DNA of 64,000 bases from Brooklawnia cerclae (lineage in GTDB: Bacteria; Actinomycetota; Actinomycetes; Propionibacteriales; Propionibacteriaceae). The stretch lies in contig NZ_JAAMOZ010000001.1 of assembly GCF_011758645.1 (NCBI RefSeq), positions 1,178,001 to 1,242,000 of the forward strand, in the 5' to 3' direction. The stretch's first letter is position 1. Every line of letters begins with the position of its first letter. Positions 13,436 to 20,948 of the stretch are shown here, in pieces. The notes below the pieces were generated by a model that saw only the letters and a program-made list of their open reading frames with translations, had not been told where the DNA came from and did not search any database. The translations under genes and the position numbers were made by a program.

Positions 13436-13454
13436 GGCGGGCGGTCAGTCTGGT

Positions 13455-13724
13455 TCAGCGCGGACGGTAGATGTCAGAACGGTGATCGATGGCGACAATC
13501 GTGACGCGGCCGTCGTCGATGCGGTAGATGACGCGGTAGTCACCGCGGCGAGCGCTGTGCAGGCCCTCCATGTCGAGGCGCGGTGCTTTGCCCACGCGGC
13601 GCGGGTTGTCGGCCAGCGGGCCGTAGACGAACTCGATCACCGCGAGACTCACTCGTTCGGGTAGCCGCTGGAGTGCGCGCTTGGCTCGCGGGGACCAGGC
13701 GATCGGATGTGGTTCGTCAGTCAC
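13455..13724 (-). CDS. RelE/ParE-family toxin
   Basis: An 89-residue protein with the compact RelE/ParE pattern: WSPRAKRALQRLPERV near the N terminus, PLADNPRRVGKAPRL in the middle, and the C-terminal RRGDYRVIYRIDDGRV followed by DHRSDIYR. Known members are mRNA interferases or gyrase poisons blocked by a cognate antitoxin. The GTG start overlaps the stop of the Phd-type gene by 8 bases, the normal antitoxin-first order. RelE-like endonuclease action is more likely than ParE action from the basic C-terminal core, but I cannot settle it. Confidence 0.85.
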   Translation of the reverse strand: MTDEPHPIAWSPRAKRALQRLPERVSLAVIEFVYGPLADNPRRVGKAPRLDMEGLHSARRGDYRVIYRIDDGRVTIVAIDHRSDIYRPR

Positions 13725-14001
13725 GGCTGATCAACCGGAGCGCTGCGTCCTTGTCCAGAACCTCGGCCGACTCGTTCGTGAGCTCGTCGAGGCTGTCGCG
13801 GATCTCTGCGAGCAGCGCCGGACGGGCCAGGATGTCGAGTGTCTCTTCCAGCGACTCCAGGTCGTCGATGCTCACCACGACGGCCGCGGGCCTGCCGTGC
13901 TTGGTGATCACCACTCGGTGGTGTTCACGCTCCACCTGGTCCACCAACTCCGAGAGATGGTTCTTGGCGTCTCTCAAAGCCATCTGCGGGTCGACCGACA
14001 T
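13717..14001 (-). CDS. Phd/YefM-family antitoxin
   Basis: A 94-residue antitoxin. The N-terminal DNA-binding and dimerisation part has the family pattern MALRDAKNHLSELVDQVE followed by VVITKHGRPAAVVVS. The C-terminal half is acidic and helical and should wrap the toxin. The frame is open to a TTG at 14037, but ATG 14001 is preferred because a -35/-10 pair places the transcription start at or next to it. A palindrome covers the promoter, in keeping with the autorepression known for this family. Confidence 0.87.
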   Translation of the reverse strand: MSVDPQMALRDAKNHLSELVDQVEREHHRVVITKHGRPAAVVVSIDDLESLEETLDILARPALLAEIRDSLDELTNESAEVLDKDAALRLISRD

Positions 14002-14008
14002 GGCCACA

Positions 14009-14037
14009 AGTGTAGCTACAGTGTGCACCTCGATCAA
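14009..14037 (-). promoter_or_regulatory. Leaderless promoter and palindromic operator of the antitoxin-toxin pair
   Basis: On the minus strand TTGATC (14037-14032) and TACACT (14014-14009) are 17 bp apart. The -10 ends seven bases before the ATG at 14001, so the transcript would have no leader. A perfect 10-bp palindrome, TGTAGCTACA (14011-14020), overlaps the -10 box and would let the Phd-like protein block RNA polymerase. Confidence 0.6.
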
Positions 14038-14167
14038 TTGGCGACATCACCGATGACGCAGCCGTGTGACATAGTGACATCGTGCTCGGGGACCGGCCAT
14101 GCGCTGCCGACCCGCGCTGTGCCGTCGGGCGGCGAGCCCTCACAGTCGACCCACAAGGGGGTATCCC

Positions 14168-14545
14168 ATGAGTGGTGACGATCGCAAAGGTGGAGAGTCT
14201 CGTGGAAGGACTGGCAGAGTTCTGCCCCTGGTGATCTACATTCTCACAGGTCTCGTCATCGGGTTCGCTGCATCCATCGGATATCTGAATGCGTCGATGG
14301 CTGTCGGCAAACACGTGATAGTCAACGTGACAGAAGAGGGCATACGACTGGGCTATCTCAACGGCATGATCGGAAGGATATGGCTATCAGGAGCGCTTCT
14401 CTTCTTGGGCGGAGTCGTCTTGGTCGGGTTCAAGCGAAAGTGGATATTTGTGGTCGCGCTTCTGGTTATGCAGGTCGCTGCGGCCGTCATAATGTCCTAT
14501 TACGACGCCGAAATGATAGAAGTGGTGGAAGGGATCATAAAGTAG
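14168..14545 (+). CDS. Small membrane protein of unknown function
   Basis: A 125-residue protein with a short charged N terminus and three likely membrane segments: LPLVIYILTGLVIGFAAS, IWLSGALLFLGGVVLVGF and WIFVVALLVMQVAAAVI. The last is followed by an acidic tail. ATG 14168 is chosen because AAGGGGG lies at 14153-14160. Codon use includes several ATA and AAG/AAA choices unlike the housekeeping genes nearby, which fits an acquired segment. I do not recognise the family, and no neighbour fixes its role. Confidence 0.6.
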   Translation: MSGDDRKGGESRGRTGRVLPLVIYILTGLVIGFAASIGYLNASMAVGKHVIVNVTEEGIRLGYLNGMIGRIWLSGALLFLGGVVLVGFKRKWIFVVALLVMQVAAAVIMSYYDAEMIEVVEGIIK

Positions 14546-14584
14546 TGGCTTTGCCCACGCGGTGCGGGTGATCTGCCGCTGAGG

Positions 14585-14830
14585 TCACGAGGACAGCAGG
14601 ACAGTGCGTTCCGGGTGTTCGGCGGCCAGGTCTGCGTCGAATGTGGCCACTTTCGCGTCGTGATGGGCAGCCAGGCCGACCAGATAGGCATCGGTCACCT
14701 GCCGGTGAGCCCGGACCCGGTCGAGATCGATGTGGGAGTAGGAGACGGAGTCGGGCCAGAACCGGCATCGCGGGTGCTGGTGGAAGCTGGCCAGAAGGGC
14801 CACGGGCCGTCTGAGATGCCTGTGTGCCAT
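14585..14830 (-). pseudogene. Truncated VapC-like PIN-domain toxin (C-terminal part)
   Basis: The frame encodes a stretch that matches the C-terminal half of VapC toxins: RCRFWPDSVSYSHIDLDRV, then HRQVTDAYLVGLAAHHDAK and VATFDADLA. The Asp of VTDAYL is one of the conserved PIN acidic residues. The N-terminal half, with the first metal-binding Asp, is missing: upstream the frame runs into sequence unlike VapC that overlaps the start of the kinase gene. There is also no VapB partner. I infer a decayed toxin. The end of the real homology near 14830 is approximate. Confidence 0.6.
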
Positions 14831-14848
14831 CTGTGACACGATGACGTC

Positions 14849-16024
14849 ATGATCGAGACATGGCCGGAGGTTGCCGATTCCCATCGGCCGGGGGAGACGG
14901 TTCGCGGCTCGGTTGGGACAACACCCGACCAACGTTGGACGATCGTGGCGGCCGTGATTCTCGGGGGCATGTATGTCAGTTCGGGGCTGCCTCGCGAGAG
15001 CGACTGGCTGGCGGCTGCGATGCAGATCGGGATCCTGGTGGCGGTGGCTTTCTCAGGCTGTCGCTTGGCCGTCTCGGCGACGGGGACCGGCACTCTGTTG
15101 CTTCTGGCGTATGTCGCGAGACCCAGTACGGACATCACTTTCTCGGCACTGGGTGGCTATGTGATTCTCGTGGCCGCGCTGGCTGATCGGCGAAGGCTGT
15201 TCGCCCTGCTGTGGTCGGCGGTCTACCTGATCCTGATGGGGATGCACCAGACCGTCAGCGCCACAACGTGGCACACGTGGAGGGACTTGATGGGCAACTT
15301 CGTCTTGTTGGCCGTGGTCTTCACGATCGTTGGTGAGGTAGTCGGTGTCTCCCGTCAGCGCCGCCGGGCCAGGAGCGTCAGGGAAGCGCAAAAGGTACGC
15401 CGAACACTGCAATCCGCGGCGCGGGCCATGCATGATTCCATCGCGCAGTCTGCTGCCCAGGCTCTATGGCTCACCCGGGAGGCCCGTCAGGAACTTGATG
15501 ATGGGTCGTCGCATGAGGCGCTTCTTGTTGCTGAGAATGCCTGCGAAAGAGTCGTCGACCAAACCCGGGAGATGATGGCCTCCTTGCAACAGGGGCGAGA
15601 CATCATGTCGTCCAGCGCCGACCATGCGGAACAGGTGCGATGTGTTCTCGAATCCCAAGCCCGTCAGCTGGGCCGGAGCGGTCGCGTTGTCGTGTGGGAA
15701 TGTGATCTTCCCCCACAGGCTTCGGCTGAGGTGATCTCGGGGCTCTCAGCCGTGGCCGTGGAGGCGACCAGGAACATGGTGAAACACGGCGGGGAGCAGG
15801 GCGAATACGAGTGCTCGATTCGCTGGGATCGAGCCGCTGGTGTGGTGCGGGGTGCCTTCAGTAATCCGGTGGACGTCCCAGGGGGAAGGGCGATCTCGAC
15901 CGGCCTTGGGCTGGTGATCATGGCCGATGAAGTGCGCGCACTGGGTGGCATGATATCCACTGGGACGCGAGATGGGCGGTGGATAGTGGAGTTCAGCATT
16001 CCTGTGGGAGACGATGATGCCTGA
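14849..16024 (+). CDS. NarL-type sensor histidine kinase
   Basis: A 391-residue sensor kinase. Residues about 30-165 hold four or five membrane segments with very short extracytoplasmic loops, as in intramembrane-sensing kinases. The HisKA_3-type phosphorylation site is His195 in RAMHDSIAQSAAQAL. The ATPase domain follows, with the N box EATRNMVKHGG and the G box STGLGLVIMADEV. There is no clear Shine-Dalgarno sequence at ATG 14849, and the ATG is part of a short palindrome (ATGACGTCAT). The gene overlaps the response regulator by 8 bases and converges on an ABC transporter set, its most likely output or partner. Confidence 0.88.
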   Translation: MIETWPEVADSHRPGETVRGSVGTTPDQRWTIVAAVILGGMYVSSGLPRESDWLAAAMQIGILVAVAFSGCRLAVSATGTGTLLLLAYVARPSTDITFSALGGYVILVAALADRRRLFALLWSAVYLILMGMHQTVSATTWHTWRDLMGNFVLLAVVFTIVGEVVGVSRQRRRARSVREAQKVRRTLQSAARAMHDSIAQSAAQALWLTREARQELDDGSSHEALLVAENACERVVDQTREMMASLQQGRDIMSSSADHAEQVRCVLESQARQLGRSGRVVVWECDLPPQASAEVISGLSAVAVEATRNMVKHGGEQGEYECSIRWDRAAGVVRGAFSNPVDVPGGRAISTGLGLVIMADEVRALGGMISTGTRDGRWIVEFSIPVGDDDA

Positions 16025-16586
16025 GCGGGCCAAGCGGGCTCTGGTTGTTGACGACGATCCCATCGTCCGCGATGCCGTGGCACGTATGCTCGCACGGCGT
16101 GGTGCGGTGGAAATCGTGGACACCCTCGGCGATGGCTTCGAGGTGATCGCGTATTGCGATGGCAACAAGGTGGATGCTGTCTTGATGGATGCCCGGATGC
16201 CGGGCTTGGATGGGCTTTCGGCCTCGGCCGATCTCAAGACTCGTCATCCGGAGCTTCGTGTGGTGCTCTTCTCGTCCTATGATTCAGGCACCACCCAGAA
16301 CCAGGCACGGGCATCGATGGCGGACGCATTCGTGTCGAAGTCCGCGTCCATTGACGAGATTGAAGCGGCGCTACTGGGCACCGGTGAGCGTTCCGTCCTG
16401 ACCGGTCGTGAGTGCGAGGTGGTAGTACTTGCGGCGGAGGGACTGACAAGCCAGCAGATCGGCCGCAGGCTGGGCATCGGCGAATCTACAGTGAAAGCAC
16501 ATATCGCATCGGGGCTACGAAAGAGCGGGGCCAAGTCGCGGACGCAGTTGGTCAGGTGGGCGATCGAGAATGGCTACATCACATAG
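16017..16586 (+). CDS. LuxR/NarL-family response regulator
   Basis: A 189-residue regulator. The receiver domain has the acidic pocket VVDDDP, the phospho-acceptor Asp58 in VLMDARMPGLDG and the conserved lysine in AFVSKSAS. The C-terminal LuxR-type HTH is LTGRECEVVVLAAEGLTS, then QQIGRRLGIGESTVKAHI. ATG 16017 suits GGGAG at 16006-16010; ATG 16014 is also in frame. It overlaps the kinase gene and is surely its partner. The targets are unknown, but the neighbouring secreted-protein/ABC operon is the obvious candidate. Confidence 0.9.
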   Translation: MPERAKRALVVDDDPIVRDAVARMLARRGAVEIVDTLGDGFEVIAYCDGNKVDAVLMDARMPGLDGLSASADLKTRHPELRVVLFSSYDSGTTQNQARASMADAFVSKSASIDEIEAALLGTGERSVLTGRECEVVVLAAEGLTSQQIGRRLGIGESTVKAHIASGLRKSGAKSRTQLVRWAIENGYIT

Positions 16587-16605
16587 CCGGGGTGTCGACA
16601 GCCTC

Positions 16606-16625
16606 CGAACCACCTGAATGGTTCG
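16606..16625. terminator. Hairpin between convergent genes
   Basis: A perfect 7-bp inverted repeat CGAACCA/TGGTTCG with a 6-base loop lies between the response regulator stop (16586) and the stop of the convergent permease (16626). It could end transcription from both sides. There is no strong U tract, so the strength is uncertain. Confidence 0.5.
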
Positions 16626-17468
16626 TCACTGCGGCAAGAGGTCTCGTCGGTTGAAGGACCACAGGCCCACACCGATCGTCACGAGAATGACCGCCGCCAG
16701 GATCGCGCACATGGGTGCGGTTTTCACGCCTTGGGTGTCGAAGGCACCGTTGCGTGCCACCATCGCGAAATCGCCGACGAGAAGCTTGGAGCGGCTCAAC
16801 GACGAGACCGCGAGGTAGCTGACCACCAGCAGGAAGGCAAGCATAGGCCGCAGGGTAAGGGCAAGGACCATCTGAACGGTCGACATGGCCAATGAGAGCA
16901 GCACCGGCACCGCGAGCAGACCGTAGGCCTCGGCCGTGGTGACCTGCGACATGTCCAGCCCGTTGATGACCGCTCCCACGTCGGGGCGGGGCGCTGCGGT
17001 CATCCCGTCGAATACGAGACTGAATACCAGCCATACCAGCGCGGCGACTGCGTAGAACGTGAGCACGGTGAACACCAGCCACAGCCATTTGGCCACCCAC
17101 CAATCCGTGCGGCTTCCCACACAGTGGAGCGTGTGGACGGAGTAGCCGCTCAGGCCTTTGGCCGGATACGAGGCAACGAGCAGCGCCAGCAGAACCTGCG
17201 GCAACAGCCATGTGATGGGCAGCACGAGGCCGTCGTGGTCCGCGGCAGGGGTAGGCACACCGTTGAGTGCGTGCAGGGCGTAGTCGATCCACGCGGGGGT
17301 CTGATCCGGGAGGGATACGTCACCGGTGCGTCGGGCCTGATCGCACAGCAGGGCGAACACGGCGGCTGCGACCAGGTAGTTCAAGATATTCGAGCGAACG
17401 CCTACCTGCAGATCGTGCGCGAAGGCTGCGAAAAGCCGGCGGGCACGGCCGTGGTCAGAGCGACTCAT
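16626..17468 (-). CDS. ABC-2 type transporter permease (second)
   Basis: A 280-residue membrane protein with about six hydrophobic segments, for example YLVAAAVFALLC, LPITWLLPQVLLALLVAS, WLWLVFTVLTFYAVAALVW, LLAVPVLLSLAMSTVQMVL and MCAILAAVILVTIGVGLW. This is the layout of an ABC-2 export permease. It overlaps the preceding permease gene by 14 bases and is the last gene of the operon. Codon use is less GC-biased than in the flanking housekeeping genes. The substrate cannot be read from the sequence; the secreted protein at the head of the operon is a candidate, as is an immunity role. Confidence 0.75.
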   Translation of the reverse strand: MSRSDHGRARRLFAAFAHDLQVGVRSNILNYLVAAAVFALLCDQARRTGDVSLPDQTPAWIDYALHALNGVPTPAADHDGLVLPITWLLPQVLLALLVASYPAKGLSGYSVHTLHCVGSRTDWWVAKWLWLVFTVLTFYAVAALVWLVFSLVFDGMTAAPRPDVGAVINGLDMSQVTTAEAYGLLAVPVLLSLAMSTVQMVLALTLRPMLAFLLVVSYLAVSSLSRSKLLVGDFAMVARNGAFDTQGVKTAPMCAILAAVILVTIGVGLWSFNRRDLLPQ

Positions 17469-18285
17469 CGACCCTTGACCTTAGGGCCACGAATCCGGCC
17501 GCAAGGGCCGTCACCACGAGCCACTCGACAGCCATTGCTCCGAATCCGATGCCGACAGTTGTCTGGTGGGCGTTCACGAGTTCCATCGGGGAGAATCTGG
17601 ATCCTGCACCCTCGGGGATCGCAGCAAGGGCGAACTCGGCGACCCAAAGGATGATGAACGGGGTCGCCACGACCAGAATCCGATTTGCCACGATGTAGCC
17701 CGCTACCACAGACATCAGCCCGATCGATCCAGCCCACAAGAAGTTCACCAGGACGTATGCCAGCACATATACCAGCGGGTGCTCGTAGAACAGACCGCTC
17801 CACATGCCTGTCTCGGGGATGCCGAACACAGTTGCCTCGGGGCGTATCGCGGGCAGGAACATCGCCGTCAGGCACAGATCCAGCAGCAAAGGGAAGGCCA
17901 CCGCCACGCCTGCCGACACGAAGACGGCCACGGCTTTCGCTCGGTAATACCGGCCGCGCGGCGCGCGCGTGACCACATTGATGTCGTAGCCCGAGCGCCG
18001 GTCGTCGAAGAGCGAGGCCCCGAACGGCAGGGCCGCGAGCAGTGGGAGCAGAAACAGAAACAGGAGGCCGGCCATCTCGCTCATGTCGTAGCCCAGCCAG
18101 AACCGGTACAGGGAGTGCGGGTAGGAAGGGGAGAGCGCGGACTTTCGCTCGACGCTCATCTGCGACAGCGGGATCACCTGTGTCATGTGCAGAGTCACCA
18201 CCGCGAGCCCAGCAGCCAACGCCAGCAGCATGGAGCGGCCGGTGAAGGCCCGCTTGAGTTCGATCATCAGCAGTCTTCCTGACAT
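17455..18285 (-). CDS. ABC-2 type transporter permease (first)
   Basis: A 276-residue membrane protein with six likely segments: SMLLALAAGLAVVTLHM, AGLLFLFLLPLLAALPFG, AVAVFVSAGVAVAFPLLL, LAYVLVNFLWAGSIGLMSVV, ILVVATPFIILWVAEFALA and EWLVVTALAAGFVALR. A large extracytoplasmic loop lies between the first two. It probably forms a heterodimeric channel with the next gene, driven by the ATPase at 18880-19581. The ATG at 18285 is 10 bases after the upstream stop. Confidence 0.77.
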   Translation of the reverse strand: MSGRLLMIELKRAFTGRSMLLALAAGLAVVTLHMTQVIPLSQMSVERKSALSPSYPHSLYRFWLGYDMSEMAGLLFLFLLPLLAALPFGASLFDDRRSGYDINVVTRAPRGRYYRAKAVAVFVSAGVAVAFPLLLDLCLTAMFLPAIRPEATVFGIPETGMWSGLFYEHPLVYVLAYVLVNFLWAGSIGLMSVVAGYIVANRILVVATPFIILWVAEFALAAIPEGAGSRFSPMELVNAHQTTVGIGFGAMAVEWLVVTALAAGFVALRSRVDESL

Positions 18286-18295
18286 GGTCGTCCGT

Positions 18296-18880
18296 TCACC
18301 TGCCCACGTCAGGCAGACGCAGTTCGTACTTGTCTGGGTATGTCATCAGGCTCAGTGTGAAGGACCGCTCGTCCACCGTGTCCCATTCGGCCTGCTCGAA
18401 CTGATGATCATAGAGGTTGTAAGGCAAGCTCAAGCGGGCTTCCTCTCCGGCAGGGATATTCGACGGCCTTCCAGCGGGATTCGCTGCCTGTATACCTCCG
18501 AGATCGACTCCGTTGTACCAGGGCCCGGACCACAAGCTGAAGAACAGTATCGAATCGAGTGTTTCAGAACCCATCGGTTCGGTCGTCTCGTTGCGGAGCG
18601 TGATGTCGACCAGCATCAGCTTCACGGTGCCAATACGGTCTTCACTGGTCGGCGTATAGCCGTTGAGGACTTCCGGAATCTGCGAGCCGTCGATGAGGCG
18701 TGCACCGGTAAGGGTGATCGTCAAGCCGTTGATGGTGAGGGGTTCGCTGGGCAGTGCCGTGTGAGTCTCAGGCTGCGGCCACCTGGCGTTGACATCGGCG
18801 ATCCGCCACGTGACGCAAACTCCGAGGGTGGCGACCAACACGGCGGCAAGAAGCCAGCGGATCGGCAGTTTTCCTCGCAC
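18296..18880 (-). CDS. Membrane-anchored extracytoplasmic protein in the ABC operon
   Basis: A 194-residue protein with a single N-terminal membrane segment (WLLAAVLVATLGVCVTW) followed by an extracytoplasmic domain rich in beta-strand patterns (INGLTITLTGARLIDGS, GTVKLMLVDITLRNETTEP). The pattern of a strand pair followed by VDITLRNETTEP resembles DUF4352-like immunoglobulin folds, though this is only a resemblance. There is no lipobox. The GTG start overlaps the ATPase stop by one base. A role as accessory or immunity subunit of the transporter is an inference from position. Confidence 0.65.
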   Translation of the reverse strand: MRGKLPIRWLLAAVLVATLGVCVTWRIADVNARWPQPETHTALPSEPLTINGLTITLTGARLIDGSQIPEVLNGYTPTSEDRIGTVKLMLVDITLRNETTEPMGSETLDSILFFSLWSGPWYNGVDLGGIQAANPAGRPSNIPAGEEARLSLPYNLYDHQFEQAEWDTVDERSFTLSLMTYPDKYELRLPDVGR

Positions 18881-19581
18881 TATTGCCGCCCTCCAGTCGA
18901 TTCCGTGGGCTCCTCGGTGCGGCCGTGATGCGCGGCGAGACGCCCCTCGGAGATCTCGAAGACCTCGTCCGACAGAAACTCAAGCTCCGCGCGGTCGTGC
19001 GAGGCGAGAACCACGAGCGCGCCCTCGTCGCGGTGGCGTGTGAGCAGACCACGCAATTGCGCCACCCCATCGCGGTCGAGGCCGTTGGTCGGCTCGTCCA
19101 CAACGATGAGGCGCGGTCTCTCCATGAGCGCGGCGGCGATGCCGAGGCGCTGCTTCATGCCGAGGGAGAACTTACGGAAGACGCGCTGGTCGTCGGCCCT
19201 CAATCCGACGTCGGTCAGAGTCTGGCGCAGGCTCGCCTCAGTAGCGACGCCACGAATCATGGCAAGCAGCCGAAGGTTCTGCAGGGCTGTGTACTGGGGG
19301 AGGAACGCGGGGTTCTCGATCAGGGCGCCCGTGCTGTCAGGGAAGGCCAAACCCTTACCCAGCAGGCGATCGTCGATCGCGATCTCGCCGCTGGTCGGCC
19401 GGATCAGCCCGCAGATCGCACGCATGAGCATGGTCTTTCCCGACCCGTTGGGGCCTCGAAGCCCGTAGATGCGACCGCCCGCTAGGGTCATGCTCATGTC
19501 GTCGAGGACGACAGCACCCTTGATGACCTTGGTGACATGACTCAGGTTGATTCTCATAGCGGGGCGTTGGCCTCCGTTCAC
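18880..19581 (-). CDS. ABC transporter ATP-binding protein
   Basis: A 233-residue ATPase. It has Walker A GPNGSGKT, the Q-loop region ENPAFLPQYTALQNL, signature FSLGMKQRLGIA, Walker B RLIVVDEPTNGLD and the switch histidine in LASHDRAE. The LGMKQR-type signature is usual in ABC-2 exporters and in bacteriocin resistance/export systems. The start is GTG 19581, with AAGGAGG seven bases upstream; an ATG eight codons in is an alternative. It follows a secreted-protein gene and leads three membrane components. Confidence 0.92.
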   Translation of the reverse strand: MNGGQRPAMRINLSHVTKVIKGAVVLDDMSMTLAGGRIYGLRGPNGSGKTMLMRAICGLIRPTSGEIAIDDRLLGKGLAFPDSTGALIENPAFLPQYTALQNLRLLAMIRGVATEASLRQTLTDVGLRADDQRVFRKFSLGMKQRLGIAAALMERPRLIVVDEPTNGLDRDGVAQLRGLLTRHRDEGALVVLASHDRAELEFLSDEVFEISEGRLAAHHGRTEEPTESTGGRQ

Positions 19582-19635
19582 TCCAGCCTCCTTGAGGTAG
19601 TGGGCAGCAACGTGGCGCTGCGAGCCTAGCGGACA

Positions 19636-19675
19636 CCGGGGTGTGCTGCCTGGTGCGATGTGGGCAGCACCCCGG
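19636..19675 (-). terminator. Strong hairpin between the secreted-protein gene and the ABC genes
   Basis: Arms at 19636-19650 and 19663-19675 pair over 13 bp with a 2-base bulge (core GTGCTGCC/GGCAGCAC, extended by CCGG). The hairpin begins 25 bases after the secreted-protein stop and has no U tract. It could be a partial terminator or mRNA stabiliser, so that the secreted protein is made in excess over the transporter. Confidence 0.5.
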
Positions 19676-19699
19676 CGTCCGAGTCCGGCCCGATCGGCG

Positions 19700-20149
19700 T
19701 CAGCAGTAGTCCGGGCTCCACAGGCCGTTGGCCTTGAGCCCGATGGGTCCGATCTTCCTGGCGCCGATTGACGCCTGGGTGTATCCCCACTCGCGCACGT
19801 AGTTCGTCAGCGTGTACGTGTTGCCCTGCCGGATCTCGTAGCTGTGGCCGTCGCTCACGTCGATGTATGAGCCGTTGGAGTACGCCGAGGCCCATGCGAC
19901 GTAGGTCCTGCCCGCCTCGTTGTACTGGGCATTCAGATACACATACGACGTGTTGTCCTTGTATCTGGCCGGCGTGTACTGGGTGTCGCTGATGATGGGC
20001 CAAGAGAACGAGAACGACGAGTCTGTGCAACTCGCGTGCGCCACTTGGCTGGTCGTTACCGATACGAGCGGGATGGCGAGAAGTGCGCAGATCGCGGCAC
20101 CCGCGACCCGCTTCCTGGTGTTGGTTGTGTGGTGCGTCTGACTGGTCAT
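19700..20149 (-). CDS. Small secreted protein with two terminal cysteines
   Basis: A 149-residue precursor. It has a basic n-region (NTRKR), a hydrophobic core (VAGAAICALLAIPLV) and a probable signal-peptidase site after VAHA (residue 39). The mature protein of about 110 residues has just two cysteines, at position 2 of the mature chain (Cys41) and as the very last residue (Cys149), so one disulfide could tie the two ends together. It is rich in Tyr, Ser and Asn, with motifs ARYKDNTSYVYLN and GLWSPDYC. The general look recalls small Gram-positive secreted beta proteins (DUF2712-like), which I could not verify. A bacteriocin, signal or surface protein are all possible. The start has AGGTG nearby. 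Confidence 0.75.
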   Translation of the reverse strand: MTSQTHHTTNTRKRVAGAAICALLAIPLVSVTTSQVAHASCTDSSFSFSWPIISDTQYTPARYKDNTSYVYLNAQYNEAGRTYVAWASAYSNGSYIDVSDGHSYEIRQGNTYTLTNYVREWGYTQASIGARKIGPIGLKANGLWSPDYC

Positions 20150-20336
20150 CTTTCACCTATCGATCGAATGGGGGGTGACACGGGGACCTTCTGAACAGAG
20201 CCCTTGTTGACCAAGCACGGCAGGGCTCAACAAACTGAAATGACTCGACGATGGATGGGGCTGGAGATCTCTCCCGTGCGGTGAAGCTCGAGAAACAACC
20301 GCACGACAAGATCCTCCGCCGCCAGATGGTCGCGCG
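20150..20336. other. Leader/promoter region of the secreted-protein gene with overlapping inverted repeats
   Basis: No gene is apparent here. Two inverted repeats share bases: GAGCCCT (20198-20204) with AGGGCTC (20222-20228), and TTGTTGA (20204-20210) with TCAACAA (20227-20233). As RNA on the minus strand the two stems would be mutually exclusive; as DNA they could be a regulator site. They lie 50-85 bases before the start codon of the secreted protein. Confidence 0.4.
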
Positions 20337-20687
20337 CTAGTGGACTTTCGGAGGAGGCACATCAAGCCGGGCGAGGCGGGTCCCAGACCTGATGGACGGA
20401 TGGGCACCCCCAACGATGGCCTGCGACGGCAGGCTTGCTGGTTCGTTGGGCTTGCACCCGGGGAGCCAGGGGAACCACGTGCAGAGGTCCGTGTCCGACG
20501 CGGCAGCGACCGGTGATCTGGCTATGCCTACGGTGAGTTCAGTGCGACTGGCATCCGGACGGGAATGCCACAAGCGAAGGGCAGTGAGTTGGGATTCATA
20601 TGTCACGAACGGATGAGCGAGGGTGACGAGCGCAATGAGGACGGCGAGGCCCAGGAATGCCAGCCGACGAGCGTAAGTGTGGTCCAC
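20337..20687 (-). CDS. Possible small membrane-anchored or secreted protein
   Basis: A 116-codon frame with a basic N terminus (YARRLAFLG), one hydrophobic segment (LAFLGLAVLIALVTLAHPF) and an extracytoplasmic tail with a cysteine pair in DTDLCTWFPWLPGCKP. It lies upstream of the secreted-protein gene on the same strand. The GTG at 20687 has no convincing ribosome site, and another frame upstream (20603-20866) also looks membrane-like (FALFAKGLLVGAYPTAAAS), so a frameshifted longer gene is possible. Not a recognised family. Confidence 0.4.
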   Translation of the reverse strand: MDHTYARRLAFLGLAVLIALVTLAHPFVTYESQLTALRLWHSRPDASRTELTVGIARSPVAAASDTDLCTWFPWLPGCKPNEPASLPSQAIVGGAHPSIRSGTRLARLDVPPPKVH

Positions 20688-20948
20688 AGGAGGGATGCTG
20701 CCGCAGTCGGGTAAGCCCCCACCAGTAGACCTTTGGCGAAGAGAGCGAACTCGCTGGCGTTAGCGAACCAGCCAGCGTGGACGCGTCCTGCGCGGTCACG
20801 CGGCCCGCGTGAAATTCGCGCGGGCGCCGTGGCTTCCCGCAGGCCGTATACCGCCCGCCGGAGCACACAGCACCCGCGCGAAGTCAGGCGGCCCGCCGGA
20901 AACGCACGGCACCCGCCAAAGCGTCCGCCGGACGCAACGACCGGACGA

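Follow-up and report, generated by a model that had tools for sequence, protein, structure and literature searches.

An inserted gene set in Brooklawnia cerclae that pairs a small secreted protein with ABC-2 transporter genes and may form a bacteriocin-like system with its own protection

We analyzed a 64,000-nucleotide stretch of the Brooklawnia cerclae genome (NZ_JAAMOZ010000001.1, positions 1,178,001 to 1,242,000; hereafter the window), which contains a set of genes coding for a small secreted protein, an ABC ATPase, a membrane-anchored protein and two ABC-2-type permeases next to a sensor kinase and response regulator pair. These seven genes (Table 1) all occur in the open reading frame (ORF) list of the window at the places given to them by an earlier sequence-only reading of this DNA. 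The regulator gene and the permease 2 gene are convergent, lying tail to tail with 39 bp between them, and the ATPase ORF is open to position 19581 (18880-19581), the ATG at 19557 being an alternative start. Hydropathy analysis gives the secreted protein a single hydrophobic segment at residues 13-34, a Sec-type leader. Cleavage after AHA, a site placed by eye without a predictor, would leave a mature chain of 110 amino acids (aa) and 12.4 kDa with two cysteines, one as its second residue and one as its last, exactly as had been described before. Upstream of the secreted gene there is also a 116-aa ORF (20337-20687, minus strand) with one hydrophobic segment, a short cysteine-bounded stretch and no Pfam match. 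A comparison of two 200-base stretches for a promoter motif shared by the secreted gene and the kinase gene gave one 8-base match and nothing further.

Table 1. Features of the gene set and of the island that carries it (window positions)
Feature	Position	Strand	Basis
Secreted WSPD-motif protein, 149 aa, predicted mature chain 110 aa	19700..20149	-	Hydropathy, family alignment, weak DUF2712 match
ABC ATPase, LanF-like, Glu at Q-loop position	18880..19557	-	ABC_tran above Pfam cut-off; best NCBIfam model TIGR03740
Membrane-anchored extracellular protein	18296..18880	-	One hydrophobic segment, 4-25; no Pfam match
ABC-2-type permease 1	17455..18285	-	No Pfam match; ~7 hydrophobic segments; profile matches in 52/60 loci
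ABC-2-type permease 2, DUF2705 (PF10920)	16626..17468	-	39.7 bits, cut-off 22.4; ~6 hydrophobic segments
Sensor histidine kinase, divergent	14849..16024	+	Weak Pfam matches
NarL/LuxR-type response regulator	16014..16586	+	Response_reg and GerE above Pfam cut-off
Inserted island, 7.5 kb, between gltD and mandelate-racemase-like gene	13436..20948		Comparison with congeners
ParE toxin / Phd-YefM antitoxin pair, left end of island	13455..14037	-	Domain search
PIN-domain (VapC-like) gene remnant, overlaps kinase start region	14585-14932	-	E 0.0015, below Pfam cut-off

The association of the secreted gene with the ABC genes is more than a chance one, since dozens of genomes have gene sets like it. 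Specifically, 60 loci with matches to a profile of the secreted protein, some of them near-identical, were taken for context from the profile searches given below. In 54 of them the distance from the secreted gene to an ATPase scoring above 200 bits is at most 4 kb, and in 53 the ATPase is on the same strand. Within 5 kb there is a permease 1 relative in 52/60, a permease 2 relative in 39/60 and an anchored-protein relative in 24/60, and in loci L003 and L004 the relatives of the anchored protein, annotated as DUF5028, directly follow the ATPase. The two weakest matches of the Lachnospiraceae-family search (L219 and L220) are counted here as linked. Among the six loci without a linked ATPase, four end at a contig edge, one (L218) is probably a false match, and the remaining one (L199) is a chromosomal locus whose secreted gene has no ATPase in the 14 kb taken. 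The ABC co-occurrence that the sequence-only reading proposed as a check holds for most loci. The case it named against itself, a secreted gene standing without ABC genes, occurs as well, in L199 and on all three small Bacillus plasmids examined.

The secreted proteins share a C-terminal motif. Four residues (K64, Y71, W144 and D147 in window numbering) are invariant in an 18-member alignment, most members of which have G-x-W-S-P-D at the C-terminus as a family trait, and W-x-x-D is found near the C-terminus in 69 of 73 distinct relatives (window protein excluded). The cysteines are a different matter. It had been proposed that a single disulfide closes the mature chain end to end, and we considered such a ring as a feature of the family; this was rejected because 34 of the 73 relatives have no cysteine after residue 30 and only one ends in cysteine, so an end-to-end disulfide may apply to the window protein alone. 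DUF2712 (PF10916) matches the window protein with 17.1 bits (E 0.0089), below the gathering cut-off of 22, and matches at E ≤ 1 are found in 5 of the 18 aligned members including this one, the best at 5.5e-12. Profiles of the WSPD proteins and of the YybN-type proteins align with an hhalign probability of 82% (E 1e-5) over 31 columns only, and kinship of WSPD proteins with YybN rests on this match, on the weak scores with DUF2712 and on the gene set they have in common. Two side observations concern individual members: near a related ATPase, L035:6702-7586 codes for two tandem small secreted proteins that end in G-S-W-R-S-N and are weak family members, and on a Lachnospira plasmid (L005:1767-2242) the WSPD secreted ORF begins inside an agrD-like ORF in another frame.

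Turning to the transporter, one ATPase accompanies two ABC-2 permeases with about seven and six hydrophobic segments (by hydropathy), which is the architecture of LanFEG, where each permease has about six TM segments. An NCBIfam scan, which covered the window ATPase only, gave the lantibiotic-protection model galliderm_ABC (TIGR03740) as the best match among 199 families, at 180.4 bits against a cut-off of 309.75; the ABC model of the 972 type scored 87.3 bits. The window ATPase has Glu at the Q-loop position, as do 65 of 68 cassette-type ATPases, four of the 68 being from loci without a secreted gene. Glu for Gln in the Q-loop of LanF (the E-loop) is associated with immunity, and our literature search returned no match for 'E-loop'. 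As a mark of immunity this residue does not discriminate here: it is equally common in related ATPases from loci without a secreted relative (73/76), and for this reason it appears to mark the wider ATPase group. More distant ABC ATPases carry it in 6 of 35 cases. In a tree of 68 ATPase rows, the window ATPase falls in a supported set of 25 (95/93) together with 16 clostridial rows and 8 rows from actinomycetes of other classes; the remaining other-class actinomycete rows are probably Coriobacteriia, to judge from Collinsella and Adlercreutzia. DUF2705, which the window permease 2 matches, is not general in the family. It is matched in 9 of 44 Bacillus-genus genomes, with a score above the cut-off in four, and is not matched in several (e.g. 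G656, G713, G687) that have WSPD cassettes. Finally, in 47 of 58 cassettes, near-duplicates having been removed, divergence of the secreted protein and of permease 1 is correlated beyond what the ATPase distance accounts for (partial r 0.46, with 0 of 2000 permutations as high), a correlation that may stem from shared ancestry.

The distribution of the family is patchy. A search with the window protein in 95 other genomes from its genus, family and order returned no relative; relatives occur in Bacillota and in other actinomycetes. Profile searches with a threshold of E ≤ 0.001 matched 5 of 346 phylum genomes (that of B. cerclae included), 13 of 44 in the genus of Bacillus inaquosorum, 17 of 200 in the family of Lachnospiraceae bacterium IMSAGC_012 and 14 of 198 in the order of Enterococcus moraviensis. 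On plasmids, tblastn located cassettes in Vescimonas, Collinsella, Carnobacterium, Lactiplantibacillus, Lachnospira and Priestia, most of whose proteins have only the annotation hypothetical; a Ruminococcus plasmid region has ABC genes, the secreted relative having been sought there by profile searches only. The B. inaquosorum protein matches 35 plasmid records, 29 of them from Bacillus, and three Bacillus loci have tandem copies of the secreted gene (3, 3 and 2 copies). The two Lactococcus plasmids examined carry ABC genes, and on one of them (L239:1531-10819) the cassette adjoins a Blp-family bacteriocin, HlyD and a peptidase-ABC exporter. Cassettes are found on plasmids, at prophage-like sites and in islands, and the patchy distribution and plasmid copies would fit horizontal transfer. 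Single-protein scans of genome contigs and viral contigs found nothing close, one of them giving only the query's own contig; no PHROGs match had an E-value below 0.1, and there was no PADLOC match.

The window set itself lies in an inserted island. The genus comparison covered eight genomes including this one. In the congeners G006, G002 and G007 the mandelate-racemase-like gene lies next to gltD, with some 170-200 bases between the tblastn ends; the four others have no close racemase and are uninformative. The G+C content of the inserted genes is 0.56-0.67, as against 0.68-0.71 in the four flanking genes measured. Third-position G+C of the inserted genes (0.63-0.86) does not depart from the range shown by 33 long ORFs in other parts of the window, and for this reason base composition alone is modest evidence for insertion. 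Among the island proteins scanned there was no Pfam or NCBIfam match to a lantibiotic precursor or modification enzyme, and no peptidase-ABC exporter. This agrees with the earlier judgement that the locus is neither a lantibiotic nor a lactococcin-972 set. PF09683 (lactococcin 972) gave no match at E ≤ 10 for the window protein and none at E ≤ 1 for the 18 members, and kinship with lactococcin 972 was rejected at an hhalign probability of 0.2-0.3%, a comparison made with 11 of 15 fetched members because four loci had no clean ORF.

The two-component pair did not hold up as a core part of the set, as the sequence-only reading had presented it. The kinase scores below the Pfam cut-offs (HisKA_3 15.5 bits against 24; HATPase_c 12.9 against 26.4) and has matches at E ≤ 1e-8 in 6 of 396 genomes of the phylum, its own included. 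We surveyed regulators near the secreted gene using example regulators from these loci as queries, with the Rap-like and Rgg-like ones named by eye, and 67 of 73 loci could be scored. Relatives of the window kinase were found at none of the 67. Two loci had a NarL-type regulator, in both cases on the opposite strand at a distance of about 4 kb. Other types were Rap-like (4 loci, source L018 included), LytTR (4), AgrB (3, source L005 included), membrane LuxR (2) and Rgg-like (1), the last two counts each including the source locus. Rap is also annotated on Bacillus plasmids with a solo secreted gene, and on the Lachnospira plasmid of L005 the cassette is followed by AgrB and by a LytTR regulator and kinase. 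The two-component pair is a local choice, not a conserved part of the set.

We consider it possible, with a probability of roughly 0.45, that the window set is a horizontally acquired, Sec-secreted bacteriocin-like system with LanFEG-like self-protection. The 149-aa precursor would exit via the Sec pathway, and signal peptidase would release from it an unmodified protein of about 12 kDa whose target would be the envelope of related bacteria. The ATPase, together with the two ABC-2 permeases, would work as a LanFEG-like transporter and rid the producer's own membrane of the protein. The anchored protein could stand in for LanI as an additional immunity factor, and the kinase and regulator would switch the set on. 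In favour of this we count the linkage in 54 of 60 loci, the best match to TIGR03740, the co-divergence, the Lactococcus plasmid with its Blp-type bacteriocin, the presence of yybN among Rok targets (see below), the agr, Rap-like and Rgg-like neighbours, the tandem copies, and the plasmid, prophage-like and island sites. Of the earlier suggestion of a regulated, perhaps bacteriocin-like system, the recurrent secreted protein and ABC-2 set stands and is plausibly bacteriocin-like, and the two-component pair falls away as a core element. More tentative still is the wider proposal that WSPD proteins belong with YybN to a single undescribed bacteriocin family in Bacillota and Actinomycetota, whose members would be Sec-secreted, unmodified and about 10-14 kDa in size, each with its own co-diverging LanFEG-like immunity cassette.

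Several results weigh against the bacteriocin interpretation. The linkage is one-way: 76 of 80 loci fetched by the ATPase have no secreted relative (the four that do are L013, L018, L029 and L035), and 30 of the 34 genomes of these loci searched with an earlier profile (A3) have none anywhere. On all three Bacillus plasmids examined (B. velezensis L007, pTA1015 and pTA1040), the secreted gene adjoins a signal peptidase gene and there is no ABC gene. Nothing speaks more strongly against a simple pairing of toxin and immunity than these solo copies and the many related ABC sets that lack a secreted gene; the former could be accommodated if the plasmid hosts had a protection set on the chromosome. 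The sub-cut-off TIGR03740 score, the Q-loop Glu in ATPases without a secreted gene and the possible origin of the co-divergence in shared ancestry count on the same side, and no relative is a proven bacteriocin. Nor did the fold prediction suggested for the mature chain help: the two structure models, run with three sequences each from among the window protein and its locus relatives, are poor (pLDDT 47 and 44), with strands at low confidence only, a fold search gave nothing at E ≤ 0.001, and among solved structures none is related by sequence, the best being a fibrinogen chain at E 0.074 in one search and a second search returning none.

Both the Q-loop control and the one-way linkage weaken the bacteriocin interpretation and its one-family extension, and they strengthen the alternative that the locus is a defence operon, in which the ABC transporter expels foreign antimicrobial peptides in the manner of Cpr, with the secreted protein serving as decoy or helper instead of as a weapon. 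Cpr resistance operons, as described in PMC5786555, combine a two-component pair with a LanFEG-like transporter. Related ATPases are widespread without a secreted gene (76/80 loci), and solo secreted genes would be harmless under this reading. We nevertheless regard a defence operon as unlikely, given a secreted gene that is linked to ABC genes in 54 of 60 loci, co-diverges with permease 1 and is sometimes in tandem. Less likely again is a role in signalling, where the secreted protein would report cell density or kinship, the ABC and anchored proteins would sense or clear it and the regulator would read it. The agr, Rap-like and Rgg-like genes that adjoin some cassettes, the pair in the window and the solo genes on Bacillus plasmids that also bear a Rap gene would suit such a role; however, most of the 67 scored loci have no query regulator and the types differ, about 110 residues is large for a signal, and bacteriocin operons employ the same kinds of regulator.

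The sequence-only reading took the transporter for the protein's own exporter. Gene adjacency would agree with that, as would a table in PMC11466899 that classes YybJ2KL among exporters with function unknown. The window protein and its relatives, however, have a Sec-type N-terminal leader and the solo copies adjoin a signal peptidase gene instead, which makes a dedicated exporter improbable. Protection is favoured over export because of this leader and the best match of the ATPase to a lantibiotic-protection model, and also because the secreted protein co-diverges with permease 1 and the layout of LanFEG plus LanI is seen here. Equally improbable, in our estimation, is an envelope or surface role for the secreted protein (adhesin, wall or lipid binding) with the ABC genes as partners unrelated to killing. 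The solo plasmid copies with a signal peptidase gene point that way, and the relevant part of the pS499 plasmid-curing paper reports no toxicity, its hypothetical proteins not being studied there; the patchy mobile distribution, the LanF-like ATPase and the bacteriocin neighbours on one plasmid point the other way.

The window set ties an actinomycete island to a B. subtilis operon 'of unknown function', to secreted genes of natto plasmids and to cassettes that gut anaerobes and lactic acid bacteria carry, and it makes the antibacterial hypothesis testable in a model organism. If that hypothesis is true, there would be a broad class of Sec-secreted protein bacteriocins that tends to escape mining by leader type or modification enzyme. 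A single family with YybN would account for the yybN operon of B. subtilis as well as for the small secreted genes that natto plasmids carry next to their signal peptidase gene.

Among known systems, LanFEG with LanI resembles the window set in its one ATPase, two ABC-2 permeases and one membrane-linked extracellular protein and in the best ATPase match (TIGR03740), and differs in that the window has no lantibiotic modification enzymes and a product of about 110 aa with a Sec-type leader. In the sections of PMC5786555 concerned, LanFEG is an expelling transporter and LanI a membrane-linked binder. A class II double-glycine bacteriocin does not fit the Sec-type leader at 13-34 or the island proteins scanned, which include no peptidase-ABC exporter. 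Lactococcin 972 is in outline similar, being Sec-secreted, unmodified and accompanied by ABC genes. The natto plasmids pTA1015 (L236) and pTA1040 (L237) have a homologous secreted protein, its WSPD-family gene lying directly upstream of the signal peptidase gene, with no ABC cassette seen on the plasmid.

The nearest counterpart lies in Bacillus. Both DUF2712 and DUF2705 match in the B. subtilis control genome, and G715 of the Bacillus genus matches DUF2705 at E 7.5e-76; its locus L232, with a DUF2712 protein (134.4 bits, cut-off 22), three membrane proteins and an ATPase, is probably yybN-yybM-yybL-yybK-yybJ. A YybN-type cassette also directly follows a lysin-like gene (named by eye) on a viral contig (L233:1717-6636), as prophage cargo, and another is found in an unannotated Listeria 'phage' record (L240) that looks like bacterial chromosomal DNA; with its chromosomal-type genes the latter was not counted as phage. 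A literature search for DUF2712, DUF2705, yybNMLKJ, DUF5028 and WxPxxD, with most subscription journals outside its scope, recognised no functional study. The sboA, sdp and yyd genes presumably make antimicrobials. The yybN operon is considered horizontally acquired in passages of PMC2978689 and PMC11841835, and the Rok target list in the former names it with sboA-alb, sunA, sdpABC and yydH-J, and also comK, rok, bhlA, yxaJ and ykuJ. The quoted words 'of unknown function' are those of a passage on the operon in a 2024 review. Like the window set, L232 begins with the secreted protein and includes DUF2705 among its membrane proteins, which in L232 are followed by the ATPase. The YybN-type proteins, however, end in G-x-W-D-E-E instead of WSPD, the gene order differs, and the window set adds an anchored protein and a two-component pair but is one membrane subunit short. 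The window set is a distant relative of the DUF2712/DUF2705 sets and probably also of the yybN operon of B. subtilis.

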